Origin: Rhizorhapis suberifaciens
Lineage (GTDB): Bacteria > Pseudomonadota > Alphaproteobacteria > Sphingomonadales > Sphingomonadaceae
Reading direction: 5' to 3'
Length of the DNA stretch: 64,000 nucleotides
Assembly (NCBI RefSeq): GCF_014200045.1
Contig: NZ_JACHOV010000005.1
Location: 62,001 to 126,000, forward strand
Shown here: positions 1,047 to 23,732 of the stretch, piece after piece
Numbering within the stretch: position 1 is the first letter of the stretch
Layout of the letters: every line of letters starts with the position of its first letter
The notes under the pieces: model-generated
Told to the model about the DNA's origin: nothing
Seen by the model: only the letters and a program-made list of their open reading frames with translations
Database searches by the model: none
Translations under genes and position numbers: made by a program

Positions 1047-1075
1047 CCCCTCTGCTTAGAGGCTCTTGTCAATAT

Positions 1076-1090
1076 GTTCCCTATATGTTC
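1076..1090 (+). promoter_or_regulatory. LexA (SOS) box of the alphaproteobacterial type
   Basis: GTTC, seven bases, GTTC: an exact match to the direct-repeat operator known for LexA of Alphaproteobacteria. It ends three bases before the ATG at 1093 and would cover the promoter or first transcribed bases of the radical SAM gene that follows. The match is seen in the sequence; LexA control is inferred. Confidence 0.72.
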
Positions 1091-1092
1091 TA

Positions 1093-2172
1093 ATGCCATT
1101 CATGGCGAGCATTACCGGACGCGGTGCGACCAGGAATGGGACAAGCACGAGATTTGGCCTGCCTGAGCGGGAGCAGGACGGCGATTGGCTGGACGCGCGT
1201 GAAGAGATCGACGGAGCGCCTCCCAAGCTTAGAACCACAGTGACGGTTGAGCATCCCAAGACCATCATTGCACGCAACAAATCACCGGACATTGCCTTCG
1301 ATCGGTCGATCAATGCCTATAGGGGGTGCGAGCATGGGTGCATCTACTGTTTTGCCCGGCCGACGCATGCCTATCATGATCTGTCCCCCGGGATCGATTT
1401 CGAAAGCCGGCTTTTTGCAAAACCGGAGGCCCCTAAACTGTTGCTGGCGGAGCTTTCAAAGCCAGGCTACCGGCCAGCACCCATCGCGATGGGTACCAAT
1501 ACCGATCCCTATCAACCAATTGAAAGGGACTGGCGGATCACACGGGACTGCATTGCCGTTCTTCGCGATTGCCATCATCCGCTGATCATCACGACCAAGT
1601 CGGACCGTGTGATAAGGGATTTGGATATTCTGGGCGATATGGCCAGGGAAGGCCTGGTCGCTGTCGGCATTTCGGTGACCTCGCTCGATCCGAAAATCGC
1701 ACGAACATTGGAGCCGCGCGCTCCCCGCCCCGCCAAAAGGCTTGAAGCCATACGTCAGATTGCCGCGGCGGGCATACCCGCTCATGTGAACGTCGCACCT
1801 GTAGTGCCGGCAATCACCGATCACGAGATCGAACATATTCTACAGACCGCGGCTGAAGCAGGTGCGCAGACAGCGTCCTTCATCATTGTCCGGCTGCCGC
1901 ATGAAGTGGCCCCCTTGTTCCGTGCATGGCTGGAGGAGCATTATCCCGATCGCCTGACCAAGGTGATGGGCATGATCAACGACATACGTGGCGGACGGGA
2001 CAATGATCCGCAGTTCGGATCGCGCATGCGAGGTCGGGGTGTTTGGGCGGATCTTTTGAGGACGAGATTCAAGAAGGCTTGTCTGCGCTACGGTCTCAAC
2101 ACGACTGAAAGGCTGAACCTTCGAACCGACCTGTTCCGCCCGCCTGCCGGGGACCAGATGGAGTTATTCTAA
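1093..2172 (+). CDS. PA0069-family (SplB-like) radical SAM protein
   Basis: A 359-residue protein whose CEHGCIYC (cysteines about 79, 83, 86) is the CX3CX2C motif that binds the 4Fe-4S cluster of radical SAM enzymes. Its overall form, with FDRSINAYRGC ahead of the cluster and MGTNTDPYQP behind it, matches the PA0069 family, a relative of spore photoproduct lyase found in non-sporulating bacteria. The reaction is not known; DNA repair is suggested by the SplB kinship and by the LexA box directly upstream. ATGs at 1093 and 1102 both fit; neither has a clear ribosome site. An upstream TTG at 1066 would put the LexA box inside the coding part and is less likely. It converges with dnaE, leaving only 5 bases between. 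Confidence 0.87.
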   Translation: MPFMASITGRGATRNGTSTRFGLPEREQDGDWLDAREEIDGAPPKLRTTVTVEHPKTIIARNKSPDIAFDRSINAYRGCEHGCIYCFARPTHAYHDLSPGIDFESRLFAKPEAPKLLLAELSKPGYRPAPIAMGTNTDPYQPIERDWRITRDCIAVLRDCHHPLIITTKSDRVIRDLDILGDMAREGLVAVGISVTSLDPKIARTLEPRAPRPAKRLEAIRQIAAAGIPAHVNVAPVVPAITDHEIEHILQTAAEAGAQTASFIIVRLPHEVAPLFRAWLEEHYPDRLTKVMGMINDIRGGRDNDPQFGSRMRGRGVWADLLRTRFKKACLRYGLNTTERLNLRTDLFRPPAGDQMELF

Positions 2173-2177
2173 AAAAA

Positions 2178-5100
2178 TCAGGACACCAGGGCCAGCCGGG
2201 GCGATTCCGCCGCTTTCAGTTCGTAATGCACCACGGAAGGCAGCGCGCCGATACGGGCGGCGAGTTCCGCATCCACCATGAAGTCGCGGCCAAGGCGCAC
2301 GCGAACAATTCGCCCGTCGTCCAGGCGGGAGCGAATGATGATGTCGCTTCGTCCGCCTTTGCTGTGAGAAACGATCTGAGCCACCGATGCTACCGCAGCG
2401 GGCTCTTCAACATCGATTTGAAGAACAAGCCGTGCCTGATTGGAAAGACGGGAAAAAGGTTGGATCCCGCGTATTGTGACGCGGGGAATCTCTTCGCCCG
2501 GCTGGCGTTCCAGTTCAACGGTCAGGAGACCACAATCACCTTCTTTCCCAAGCTCGTCGATCTGGTGGCAAATATCCTCATCGAAGCAGCTCGCCTGAAA
2601 CTGCCCGCTGCTGTCGGATAGCGTGGCCGAAATATAGCGTTTGCCGCGCTTGGTATCGCGCCAGCGGACCTCTTCGATCAGAGCCGCCATCACCGCTCCG
2701 CTGCGACCGCCCTCGATACCGGAGGGCTGACTGCACAGCAGGCCGAAACTCTTGGCGCCGCTGGAATCGGCAATGGCGCGGAAGCGGTCGACCGGGTGGG
2801 CGGAGAAATAAAAGCCGAACGCATCCTTTTCCTGCGCCATCCGGTCCGAAAGAGACCATTGGGTGTTGGTGGGGATCTGAATATCAGGCTGACTGACCTC
2901 TTCCGCTCCGAAAAGGCCACCCTGACCGGTGACACGGGCGTCGGCGGCGCTGGCGGCCACCGAAAGGATCGTCTCGGCGGCTGCATGGACGCCCGCCCGG
3001 TCGGCTTCCAGGCCGTCAAAAGCGCCCCCGGCTGCAAGGCTTTCCAACTGACGCCGGTTAAGAAGGCGCGGCTCCACGCGATGGGCGAAATCATCCAGGC
3101 TTTTGAACGGCCCTTTCGCTTCTCGCTCCGCGACCAGTGTTTCCATTGCCTTTTCGCCGACGCCCTTTAGCCCGCCTAACGCATAGCGAACAGCAAAGGC
3201 GTCCTCATGAAGCTCGACCGAGAACTCCGCTTCGCTGCTGTTGATGCAGGGCGGCAAGCAAGTGAGACCTACCCGCCGCATGTCATCTACAAAAATGCAG
3301 AGCTTGTCCGTCTGATGCATGTCGAAGCACATGGAGGCGGCATAAAATTCCGCGGGATAATGGGCCTTTAGCCAAGCTGTTTGATAAGCAAGCAGAGCAT
3401 AAGCTGCGGCGTGGGACTTGTTGAAGCCATAGCCCGCAAACTTGTCGATCAAGTCGAACAGCTCATTGGCCTTGGCCGCGGGGATATCGCTCTGTTCCGC
3501 GCAGCCTTTCACAAAGCGCTCACGTTGCGCGTCCATTTCAGCCTGGATCTTCTTGCCCATGGCCCGGCGCAGCAGATCCGCATCGCCCAGCGAATATCCC
3601 GCCAGTATCTGCGCGGCCTGCATCACCTGTTCCTGATAGACGAATATTCCATAGGTCTCCGCAAGAATGCCGGAGAGGAGTTCATGAGGATATTCAATGG
3701 CTTCCTGGCCATTTTTTCGACGACCAAACATCGGAATATTGTCCATCGGGCCCGGCCGGTAGAGCGACACGAGCGCAATGATGTCACCGAAATTGGTGGG
3801 CCGCACCTGCGCCAGCGTCTTACGCATCCCTTCCGATTCCAACTGGAACACGCCGACCGTGTCACCGCGCTGAAGCAGCTCATAAACACCGGCGTCATCC
3901 CATTTCAGAAGATCGAGGTCGACATCCACGTGCCGCCGTTTCAGCAGTTGCACGGCCTTGTGGAGCACCGACAGGGTCTTGAGGCCAAGAAAGTCGAACT
4001 TAACCAGCCCCGCGCCTTCGACATATTTCATGTCGAACTGCGTCACGGGCATATCGGAACGCGGATCGCGATAGAGCGGCACGAGCTGAGACAAGGGCCT
4101 GTCGCCGATCACCACGCCCGCCGCGTGGGTGGAACTATGGCGCGGGAAGCCTTCCAGCTTGCGCGCAAGATCGATCAGGCGCTTGACCTGCGCATCGCGT
4201 TTATATTCCTGCTCCATCTCCATGACGCCATTCATGGCGCGCTCAAGCGTCCATGGATCGGTTGGATGGTTGGGCACCAGCTTGGCGAGCCGATCCACCT
4301 GGCCGTAGCTCATCTGGAGCACGCGCCCAGTATCCTTGAGAACTGCGCGCGCCTTCAGCTTTCCAAAGGTGATGATCTGCGCCACATGGTCCACGCCATA
4401 TTTGTTCTGGACGTAACGGATCACCTCTCCGCGTCGGGTTTCGCAGAAGTCGATATCGAAGTCAGGCATCGACACGCGCTCTGGATTGAGGAATCGTTCG
4501 AACAGAAGCCCCAGTGCCAGAGGGTCAAGATCGGTGATAGTCAGTGCCCAGGCGACGACCGACCCGGCACCGGAACCGCGCCCCGGCCCCACCGGAATGT
4601 CATTTTCCTTAGCCCATTTGATGAAGTCGGCGACGATCAGGAAATACCCAGGAAAGCCCATCTGGATGATGATGCCAAGCTCGAATTCCAGCCGGTCGAA
4701 ATATTCCTTGCGCTTTTCCGTGTCGGAGATGCCAAGCTTCTCCAGCCGCATTTCCAGGCCAACCGTTGCATCCGTGCGCAACTGCCGCTCCTCACCCTCC
4801 CGGTCGCCCGCCAGGCTGGGGAGGATAGGTTTGCGCTTGGGAGCCCTGACGGCACAGCGCTGTGCTACCACCAATGTGTTTGCCAGCGCCTCGGGCAAGT
4901 CCTGGAACAATTGCTGCATGTCCGGCGCCGGCTTCATCCAGGCGTCGGGCGAGCTTTTTACCCGGTCATCGCTATCCACATAAGAGGACTGGGCAATGCA
5001 CAGCATCGTGTCATGGGCCGAGTGGAAGTCCGGCTCGGTATAGCAGCAGGGATTGGTCGCAACGATCGGTATGTCGCGATCATAGGCCATGTCGAGCAAT

Positions 5101-5663
5101 AGCTCTTCGGCCTTTTCCTCCACCAAGTCATGTCGCCGAATGATTTCCACGTAGAGCCGGTCGGGAAACAGGCGCTGAAGCCGTTCGGCATAATCGCGCG
5201 CCGCATCCGGCTGATCCTCGGCGAACAATCGGGCAAGCGCTCCTTCTGCGCCTGCGGAAAGCGCAATCAGGCCATCGGTCCGACCCTCCAGCGCGTTCAT
5301 GGACACATGCGCCTCCTCCTCGATCGGTCGATCCAGATGAGCCGACGATACCAAAGCACATAGATTGTCATAGCCGGTCGCATCCTGCGCATAGAGCGCG
5401 AGCCAGTCATATGCTGGCGCGACATTAGGCGGGCGTCCAGGCCGCGCCACACACAACATGGTGCCAATTACCGGCTGCACCCCTTCGCCTTTGCAAGCGT
5501 CGGAGAATGCCATGGCGGCATAGAGGCCATTTCTGTCGGTAAGAGCAGCGGCAGGGAAACCAAGTTTGCGCGCCTGTTTGGCAATAGCCTTGGGCTCTAT
5601 CGCGCCTTCGAGCATCGTATAGGAAGAGAAGATGCGAAGAGGAACAAACGGCGCGTGCGGCAT
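2178..5663 (-). CDS. dnaE: DNA polymerase III subunit alpha (replicative DnaE1)
   Basis: The 1161-residue length and domain order match replicative DnaE1, not the shorter mutagenic DnaE2. An N-terminal PHP domain (about 5-280) starts with FVPLRIFSSYTMLEG; its metal ligands look largely replaced, so proofreading there is unlikely. The palm holds the catalytic aspartates in PDFDIDF (D401, D403) and VKFDFLG (D557), at almost the E. coli numbering. A finger region with GYGFNKSHAAAYA and a tandem HhH region follow. QGGLFG at 914-919 looks like the internal sliding-clamp binding motif, then comes an OB fold. It is the polymerising subunit of the replicative holoenzyme. It lies 75 bases after holB on the same strand and is probably co-transcribed with it. 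Confidence 0.97.
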   Translation of the reverse strand: MPHAPFVPLRIFSSYTMLEGAIEPKAIAKQARKLGFPAAALTDRNGLYAAMAFSDACKGEGVQPVIGTMLCVARPGRPPNVAPAYDWLALYAQDATGYDNLCALVSSAHLDRPIEEEAHVSMNALEGRTDGLIALSAGAEGALARLFAEDQPDAARDYAERLQRLFPDRLYVEIIRRHDLVEEKAEELLLDMAYDRDIPIVATNPCCYTEPDFHSAHDTMLCIAQSSYVDSDDRVKSSPDAWMKPAPDMQQLFQDLPEALANTLVVAQRCAVRAPKRKPILPSLAGDREGEERQLRTDATVGLEMRLEKLGISDTEKRKEYFDRLEFELGIIIQMGFPGYFLIVADFIKWAKENDIPVGPGRGSGAGSVVAWALTITDLDPLALGLLFERFLNPERVSMPDFDIDFCETRRGEVIRYVQNKYGVDHVAQIITFGKLKARAVLKDTGRVLQMSYGQVDRLAKLVPNHPTDPWTLERAMNGVMEMEQEYKRDAQVKRLIDLARKLEGFPRHSSTHAAGVVIGDRPLSQLVPLYRDPRSDMPVTQFDMKYVEGAGLVKFDFLGLKTLSVLHKAVQLLKRRHVDVDLDLLKWDDAGVYELLQRGDTVGVFQLESEGMRKTLAQVRPTNFGDIIALVSLYRPGPMDNIPMFGRRKNGQEAIEYPHELLSGILAETYGIFVYQEQVMQAAQILAGYSLGDADLLRRAMGKKIQAEMDAQRERFVKGCAEQSDIPAAKANELFDLIDKFAGYGFNKSHAAAYALLAYQTAWLKAHYPAEFYAASMCFDMHQTDKLCIFVDDMRRVGLTCLPPCINSSEAEFSVELHEDAFAVRYALGGLKGVGEKAMETLVAEREAKGPFKSLDDFAHRVEPRLLNRRQLESLAAGGAFDGLEADRAGVHAAAETILSVAASAADARVTGQGGLFGAEEVSQPDIQIPTNTQWSLSDRMAQEKDAFGFYFSAHPVDRFRAIADSSGAKSFGLLCSQPSGIEGGRSGAVMAALIEEVRWRDTKRGKRYISATLSDSSGQFQASCFDEDICHQIDELGKEGDCGLLTVELERQPGEEIPRVTIRGIQPFSRLSNQARLVLQIDVEEPAAVASVAQIVSHSKGGRSDIIIRSRLDDGRIVRVRLGRDFMVDAELAARIGALPSVVHYELKAAESPRLALVS

Positions 5664-23267: not shown

Positions 23268-23732
23268 TCAATCGTCGCGAGAAATCTTCTCTTGACGTTC
23301 GTGCCGCTCCTGGGCCTCAAGTGTCATGGTTGCGATGGGACGCGCTTCGAGACGCCCTAACGAAATGGGCTCGCCAGTGACCTCGCAATAGCCATATTCG
23401 CCGTCATCGATCCGGCGCAGCGCCGCATCGATTTTGGCAATCAGCTTGCGTTGCCGGTCACGAGTACGCAACTCGATTGACCAGTCGGTTTCGCTAGAGG
23501 CGCGGTCGTTCAGATCGGGTTCGCGAAGCGGCTCATTTTGCAGCACTGCCAAGGTGCCTTCCGCTTCGCTGAGAATCTTCTTTTTCCAACTGAGCAACGA
23601 TTGCCTGAAATATTCCAGTTGCCGCTCATTCATGAACTCTTCGTCCGGCGAAGGCCGATAACCGTCCGGAAGTGCAATCTGTCCGCGTTTGGGTGTTTCC
23701 ATGTCTTCCGGAGAATTCACAATTGATGCCAT
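23268..23732 (-). CDS. dksA: DksA/TraR-type RNA polymerase-binding regulator, zinc-finger cysteines largely lost
   Basis: A 154-residue protein with the DksA layout: a coiled coil (about 38-110) with NDRASSETDWSIELRTRDRQ, whose DRASxE-like tip acts in the polymerase secondary channel, then GYCEVTGEPISLGRLEARP. Only one cysteine remains where classical DksA has four, so zinc is unlikely to be bound in the usual way; this is typical of alphaproteobacterial DksA. By family it acts with ppGpp in the stringent response. The ATG at 23732 follows GGAGGACTT, a strong ribosome site. Confidence 0.9.
   Translation of the reverse strand: MASIVNSPEDMETPKRGQIALPDGYRPSPDEEFMNERQLEYFRQSLLSWKKKILSEAEGTLAVLQNEPLREPDLNDRASSETDWSIELRTRDRQRKLIAKIDAALRRIDDGEYGYCEVTGEPISLGRLEARPIATMTLEAQERHERQEKISRDD

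Follow-up and report, generated by a model that had tools for sequence, protein, structure and literature searches.

A PA0069-family radical SAM gene of Rhizorhapis suberifaciens with a conserved LexA-type operator in its promoter, a probably leaderless start, and a predicted spore photoproduct lyase-like fold

The window analyzed here, a stretch of 64,000 nt from Rhizorhapis suberifaciens, carries a gene for a radical SAM protein with an exact GTTC-N7-GTTC match, GTTCCCTATATGTTC, at its 5' end (1076-1090, plus strand). The first-pass annotation had described an exact LexA operator ending three bases before an ATG; the operator is there, and the gap to that codon, ATG 1093, is two bases. The features of the locus are listed below.

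1066-1071, plus strand: probable -35 element TTGTCA, read by eye, 17 nt from the -10 candidate
1076-1090, plus strand: predicted LexA operator GTTC-N7-GTTC, exact match; 99 of the 105 orthologue loci in the family also carry an exact box
1089-1094, plus strand: probable -10 element TCTAAT, read by eye, which overlaps the last bases of the operator and lies in a place that fits the peak among orthologues
1102-1104, plus strand: likely start codon ATG (alternative, ATG 1093), 7 nt after the -10 candidate, where the loci L339 and L345 align a Met
1102-2172, plus strand: PA0069-family radical SAM gene of 356 codons and a stop, from the ORF list, matching NF033668 (476 bits) and PF04055
1327-1350, plus strand: codons of the CxxxCxxC cluster (C79, C83, and C86, counted from ATG 1093), invariant in 45/45 orthologues and an insert site in some relatives

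The longest possible reading of the frame, from TTG 1066, would comprise 368 codons. Membership in the PA0069 family, which had also been proposed from the sequence, is borne out by the NCBIfam model NF033668 (cutoff of 360 bits), whose status is that of a "hypothetical equivalog." The Rv2578c-family radical SAM proteins of Actinobacteria are homologous over residues 56-290, but their model, NF038135, gives this protein 217.9 bits against a cutoff of 430. A glycosyltransferase gene and a convergent dnaE are the neighbors in the window, neither an evident partner. The dnaE gene (DNA polymerase III alpha) occupies 2178-5663 on the minus strand, and a dnaE match lies less than 3 kb from the orthologue in 22 of the 80 loci from named organisms.

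Taken alone, the bare pattern is not significant at this gene. The window holds 2 matches where 1.65 are expected, a count reached in 53 of 100 shuffles, and the whole genome (3.36 Mb) has 102 exact matches, compared with 81 for the reversed pattern; we therefore rejected any significance resting on the pattern alone. The second exact match of the window, GTTCAGATCGGGTTC at 23508-23522 (plus strand), has a GC-rich spacer, which suggests a chance match. What sets the box at the radical SAM gene apart from chance is its place and its conservation. The gene was found in 105 of the 119 genomes searched within its own bacterial family, the Sphingomonadaceae (three further loci, L137 to L139, repeat L034, L058, and L061 and were left out before this count), and the 99 loci with an exact box carry it between -300 and +30 nt around the match start. 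Plus-strand boxes that start no more than 100 nt ahead of the match number 95, against 2 control hits on the minus strand and 2 for the reversed pattern over about 700 nt of the same 105 loci, and it is on this comparison that the box exceeds chance.

Among the six family loci that lack an exact box, three (L039, L099, and L134) have a best site with one mismatch, and at two (L067 and L136) the gene appears to sit close behind an upstream ORF, the identity of that neighbor being our own reading; for the last, L069, we found no explanation. The near-match GTTCTTGTTTTGTTT replaces the exact box in L099, in L134, and in L372 from Blastomonas aquatica, possibly as a weakened operator common to related genomes.

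Beyond the family, 143 of 289 alphaproteobacterial genomes pass the PA0069-family cutoff. In the rest of the class, the exact box stands at 63 of 70 loci, a sample combining 30 loci from the class search with 40 picked by hand, mostly one per family label, out of 155 matching genomes. The 80 loci from named organisms divide into 70 with the GTTC box, 5 with CTGT-N8-ACAG, and 5 with neither. The GTTC box accounts for 70 of the 71 alphaproteobacterial loci in this set, one labeled only Proteobacteria counted in, and CTGT-N8-ACAG for 5 of the 9 others (Caballeronia, Burkholderia, two Paraburkholderia, and one betaproteobacterial MAG). Neither box was found in Blastomonas aquatica, with its near-match, and in four MAGs labeled Gammaproteobacteria (two), Nitrosomonadales, and Chromatiales. 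At 20 loci picked by hand from the matches in other classes, exact CTGT-N8-ACAG occurs at 11 and the GTTC box at none. Conservation at orthologues, the check that had been proposed along with the claim, thus comes out in favor of the operator, and a GTTC-N7-GTTC at the promoter that is conserved in this way marks the gene, on sequence grounds, as a predicted member of the alphaproteobacterial LexA regulon.

The genome itself is predicted to have the corresponding regulator and regulon. A profile search gave one LexA match; the lexA gene is preceded by GTTCCCTGTCCGTTC, an operator of the same kind ending 18 nt before the ATG, and an exact box also precedes recA. Across the family, the same operator stands before lexA at 30 of 31 loci and before recA at 26 of 30. 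When eight ORFs adjoining other boxes of the genome were scanned against curated family models, DinB and RadA exceeded the curated cutoffs; the UvrD/PcrA helicase and PolA ORFs, both truncated at the locus end, and the RmuC and UmuD-like ORFs scored below them; and two of the eight had no family match. Many further exact boxes of the genome have no recognized SOS gene beside them. Exact boxes also lie 13 and 24 nt ahead of the starts of two small ORFs (L214, 1089-1487, and L224, 1177-1476, both on the minus strand, on contigs C8 and C14) that gave no NCBIfam match and are candidate SOS genes. The proposed role of the radical SAM gene, under predicted LexA control, in the DNA damage response is supported by its conserved box, the same operator at lexA, and exact boxes at predicted repair genes.

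How the operator is built into the promoter differs between loci. Each locus was assigned a register by the distance between its box and the nearest downstream in-frame ATG, counting only those 3 nt or more past the box and falling back on GTG or TTG where no ATG was present; for four loci (L045, L049, L051, and L056), a further ATG at +24 means that the register may be mislabeled. Box-to-ATG distances in the family cluster at 3-7, 9-12, and 22-27 nt. Outside the family, they are mostly 23-27 nt (45/63). In register I the operator contains the -10 element, and the operator spacer ends in TAT in 37 of 41 loci, compared with 7 of 25 in register III (Fisher P = 3e-7). In register III it contains the -35 element, and the spacer begins with TT in 24 of 25 loci, compared with 4 of 41 in register I (P = 7e-13). 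In register II, to which the present gene belongs, the operator fills the promoter spacer.

The position of the -10 element relative to the start codon, in contrast to these registers, appears to be fixed. When all 98 family loci are taken together, the -10 score is highest for a hexamer whose end lies 6 nt ahead of the ATG (mean of -0.29, with -3.17 at the next best gap), and the 46 register III loci from outside the family peak at the same gap (0.22, next -2.50); the weights behind these scores are approximate, hand-entered values, of which the counts of TAnnnT are independent. At gap 6, TAnnnT occurs in 22/42, 6/21, and 9/25 family loci of registers I, II, and III, respectively, and in 27/46 register III loci outside the family. 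The 15 outside loci of other distance peak at gap 9, not 6. In register II, gap 13 scores slightly above gap 6 (-0.31 and -0.74), and TAnnnT is as frequent at gap 11 as at gap 6; the better score at gap 13 means that a short leader is possible for the present gene.

Shine-Dalgarno cores are rare at these starts. They occur in 0/42, 0/21, 4/25, and 3/10 family loci by register and in 0/2, 3/46, and 2/15 loci outside the family, whereas at lexA and recA within this family 28/31 and 27/30 loci have one, at box-to-ATG distances of 14-82 and 58-88 nt. The start codon is ATG in 93 of 98 family loci and in 62 of 63 outside. The tendency of the -10 element to end 6 nt ahead of the ATG, together with the scarcity of Shine-Dalgarno cores, argues for leaderless mRNA: the signature expected of it (a -10 ending 6-7 nt before the ATG, no Shine-Dalgarno core) is found, by prediction, as a trait of the family, and the mRNA of the radical SAM gene is probably leaderless, unlike those of lexA and recA. 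The situation resembles that in Caulobacter, for which 375 leaderless mRNAs have been described (PMC4117421). The Rhizobiaceae are an exception, since their ATG lies mostly 50-72 nt past the box.

For the present gene, TTGTCA-17-TCTAAT fits a start at ATG 1102. We take this codon as the probable translation start, since L339 and L345 align a Met there and ATG 1093 would leave little room for a promoter. A consensus promoter scanner listed no promoter between 1000 and 1200; TCTAAT lacks the A at position 2 that this scanner demands. On a protein tree, the register changes 33 times, compared with 55 in shuffles. This number is rough: sequences from other families are nested within the sphingomonads on this tree, 37 of its 107 internal branches are left open, and the bootstrap values were not yet stable. 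The repeated changes suggest that the register is labile while LexA control is kept.

The second question concerns the enzyme. A structure model built on 45 orthologues (mean pLDDT of 82) finds spore photoproduct lyase (SPL; 4fhc, 4k9r) at ranks 1 to 6 of a fold search, with Z scores of 18.1-18.6 and rmsd values of 3.4-3.9 over 263-273 residues, followed by NifB at 15.6. Foldseek also places SPL first, with NifB at rank 4 among the SPL entries. The fold of SPL is recovered on a predicted model, and sequence comparison gives little such signal: phmmer with the protein and hmmsearch with the orthologue alignment found no SPL chain among solved structures, a profile alignment to SPL covered only a block of 80 columns at a probability of 17%, and the SPL model TIGR04070 gave 12.2 bits against a cutoff of 400. 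In SPL (Bacillus subtilis numbering), C141 is the H donor and Y99, helped by Y97, forms the relay (PMC3742179, PMC5368176). The only invariant cysteines of the 45 orthologues are the three of CxxxCxxC, the next best column reaching 15/45. In an alignment extended by hand, the place of C141 is taken by T135 or N136. The place of Y97, before the third Cys, holds Tyr in 45/45, and that of Y99, right after it, holds Phe in this protein and in 39/45, with Tyr in 6. The lack of the H-donor cysteine and the replacement of the relay tyrosine, mostly by Phe, suggest that the enzyme is probably not a spore photoproduct lyase. The family had been described as a relative of SPL with no proven reaction; this description gains a predicted SPL-like fold and is sharpened by the loss of key catalytic residues. 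By fold and control, the protein looks like a radical SAM repair enzyme, yet not one to be filed as SPL.

Which substrate such an enzyme would act on leaves room for other readings. The gene could be under LexA control and its product act on something other than DNA lesions, such as a tRNA, a metabolite, or a peptide: the radical SAM fold serves many substrates, further down the fold ranking come, among others, NifB, SuiB, lipoyl synthase, TYW1, viperin, and RlmN, and the neighboring genes point to no partner. However, the SOS genes identified in this genome are genes of DNA repair and replication, and the best fold match, spanning residues 42-341, is a DNA-lesion enzyme, so that we regard a non-DNA substrate as unlikely. 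Far less credible is a LexA-controlled gene encoding a true SPL, which is what SOS papers imply by calling it splB; the top fold match, the CxxxCxxC motif, and the conserved Tyr at the place of Y97 agree with it, but there is no fourth conserved cysteine, the place of Y99 is mostly Phe, the TIGR04070 score is far below its cutoff, and sequence searches of solved structures did not find SPL. The reading of the box as a chance match of a loose eight-base pattern, to which the near-expected counts in window and genome would lend themselves, is practically eliminated, having already been refuted by the orthologue count and its controls.

LexA control of SplB-like radical SAM genes is already in print. 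It was predicted in 2012 for Alpha- and Betaproteobacteria (PMC3323433), with the occurrence of two unrelated LexA operators at one kind of gene used as an argument, and has since been described as shown in several species (PMC8565304). A radical SAM protein is also named in the gram-positive SOS core (PMC7739468), and ChIP-seq and RNA-seq mark vnz_31145 of Streptomyces venezuelae as a LexA target (PMC9380542), likened to the present gene by its SPL-like description, not by family assignment. The same split between two site designs, alpha versus beta, recurs in our data. In contrast, PMC3323433 calls the function photoreactivation and equates the protein with B. subtilis SPL, whose key residues are missing from the PA0069 family. 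We infer that the splB of that work is the PA0069 family, given that none of 142 alphaproteobacterial genomes exceeded the TIGR03886 cutoff and that Agrobacterium and Burkholderia-group loci of the family carry the boxes. A true SPL-like gene (TIGR03886) as the alphaproteobacterial SOS splB was rejected on the same count, with 4 weak matches, in a test that had no positive control, as none of 14 control genomes exceeded the cutoff either. Section 8 of PMC3323433 contains neither the operator register nor a leaderless start. The terms searched for the gene are absent from the papers on D. shibae and Caulobacter that were covered. The literature searched, comprising few subscription journals and some sources in part, gave nothing on Sphingomonas together with leaderless mRNA and nothing on a leaderless start, operator registers, or the loss of SPL residues in the PA0069 family. 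For SplB, PMC8565304 cites work on the Pseudomonas aeruginosa LexA regulon (its reference 57), and a mention of PA0069 in the literature concerns a strain with a tetO tag there.

PA0069 itself reportedly belongs to the P. aeruginosa LexA regulon.

In some relatives the gene is split at the CxxxCxxC codons. Two N-terminal matches were found in 7 of the 357 sphingomonad genomes that have the N-terminal part. A foreign insert lies at these codons in six sphingomonad genomes (G067, G094, G102, G107, G636, and G860), and G479, from another class, has the same kind of insert; in G892 the second copy lies 7 kb off on the opposite strand. The inserts are as follows.

L119, about 1027-2209: insert
L137, minus strand: insert
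L138, minus strand: insert
L139, about 970-1602: insert
L337, about 1223-1717: insert
L431, about 1718-2424: insert
L433, about 1719-2499: insert

They measure 0.5-1.2 kb, have a GC content of 0.49-0.57 compared with 0.60-0.69 in the upstream flank, and begin at the Gly-Cys-Glu-His codons. Each consists of sequence without known domains followed by a duplicate of roughly the first 80 codons, which runs open into the rest of the gene with the reading frame kept and which, in 5 of the 7 inserts, has its own exact LexA box. The CxxxCxxC codons look like a site of integration at which the incoming DNA restores the gene. In Pfam and PADLOC, no known domain was matched by four cargo ORFs from the inserts, and ORF scans of four inserts found no recombinase. 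A Streptomyces member of the Rv2578c family holds the attB of phage Samy (PMC12924846). In G479 (C1:76500-100500; L418 and L419), a C-terminal fragment of the gene is located some 18 kb downstream of the insert, and by eye the intervening ORFs resemble a cluster for arsenic or metal resistance.

Taken together, we consider it highly probable that this is a LexA-repressed SOS gene with its operator inside the promoter, a probably leaderless mRNA, and an SPL-fold product that is probably not a spore photoproduct lyase. LexA would sit on the direct-repeat operator between the -35 and -10 elements, touching the latter, and would there block RNA polymerase. Upon DNA damage, RecA-driven cleavage of LexA would free the promoter, and transcription would start on the ATG or only a few bases away from it, yielding a probably leaderless mRNA. 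The product, an SPL-fold radical SAM enzyme, would probably act on damaged nucleic acid and, having no cysteine H donor of the SPL type, would not carry out the spore photoproduct lyase reaction. The box, its conservation, and its place are read from the sequence itself, and the fold and the missing residues from sequence or prediction; from these we infer LexA binding, induction, the leaderless mRNA, and a DNA substrate.

A wider reading, which we offer tentatively and with more doubt than confidence, is that Proteobacteria possess an SOS-controlled SPL-fold enzyme, placed under two unrelated LexA operators, that reverses a DNA lesion by a chemistry other than that of SPL and with no cysteine H donor, and that in Alphaproteobacteria its mRNA is leaderless, the operator coinciding with the -10 element, the spacer, or the -35 element depending on the lineage, with a constant spacing between promoter and ATG. 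The persistence of LexA control at almost every alphaproteobacterial orthologue examined makes a role in DNA damage likely for the PA0069 family. With the SPL residues missing, the term "photoreactivation" used in SOS papers probably does not fit this family, and a new repair reaction may therefore be within reach of a simple assay. An operator that shifts over a fixed, probably leaderless start would, in addition, provide a natural series for the coevolution of repressor sites and promoters.
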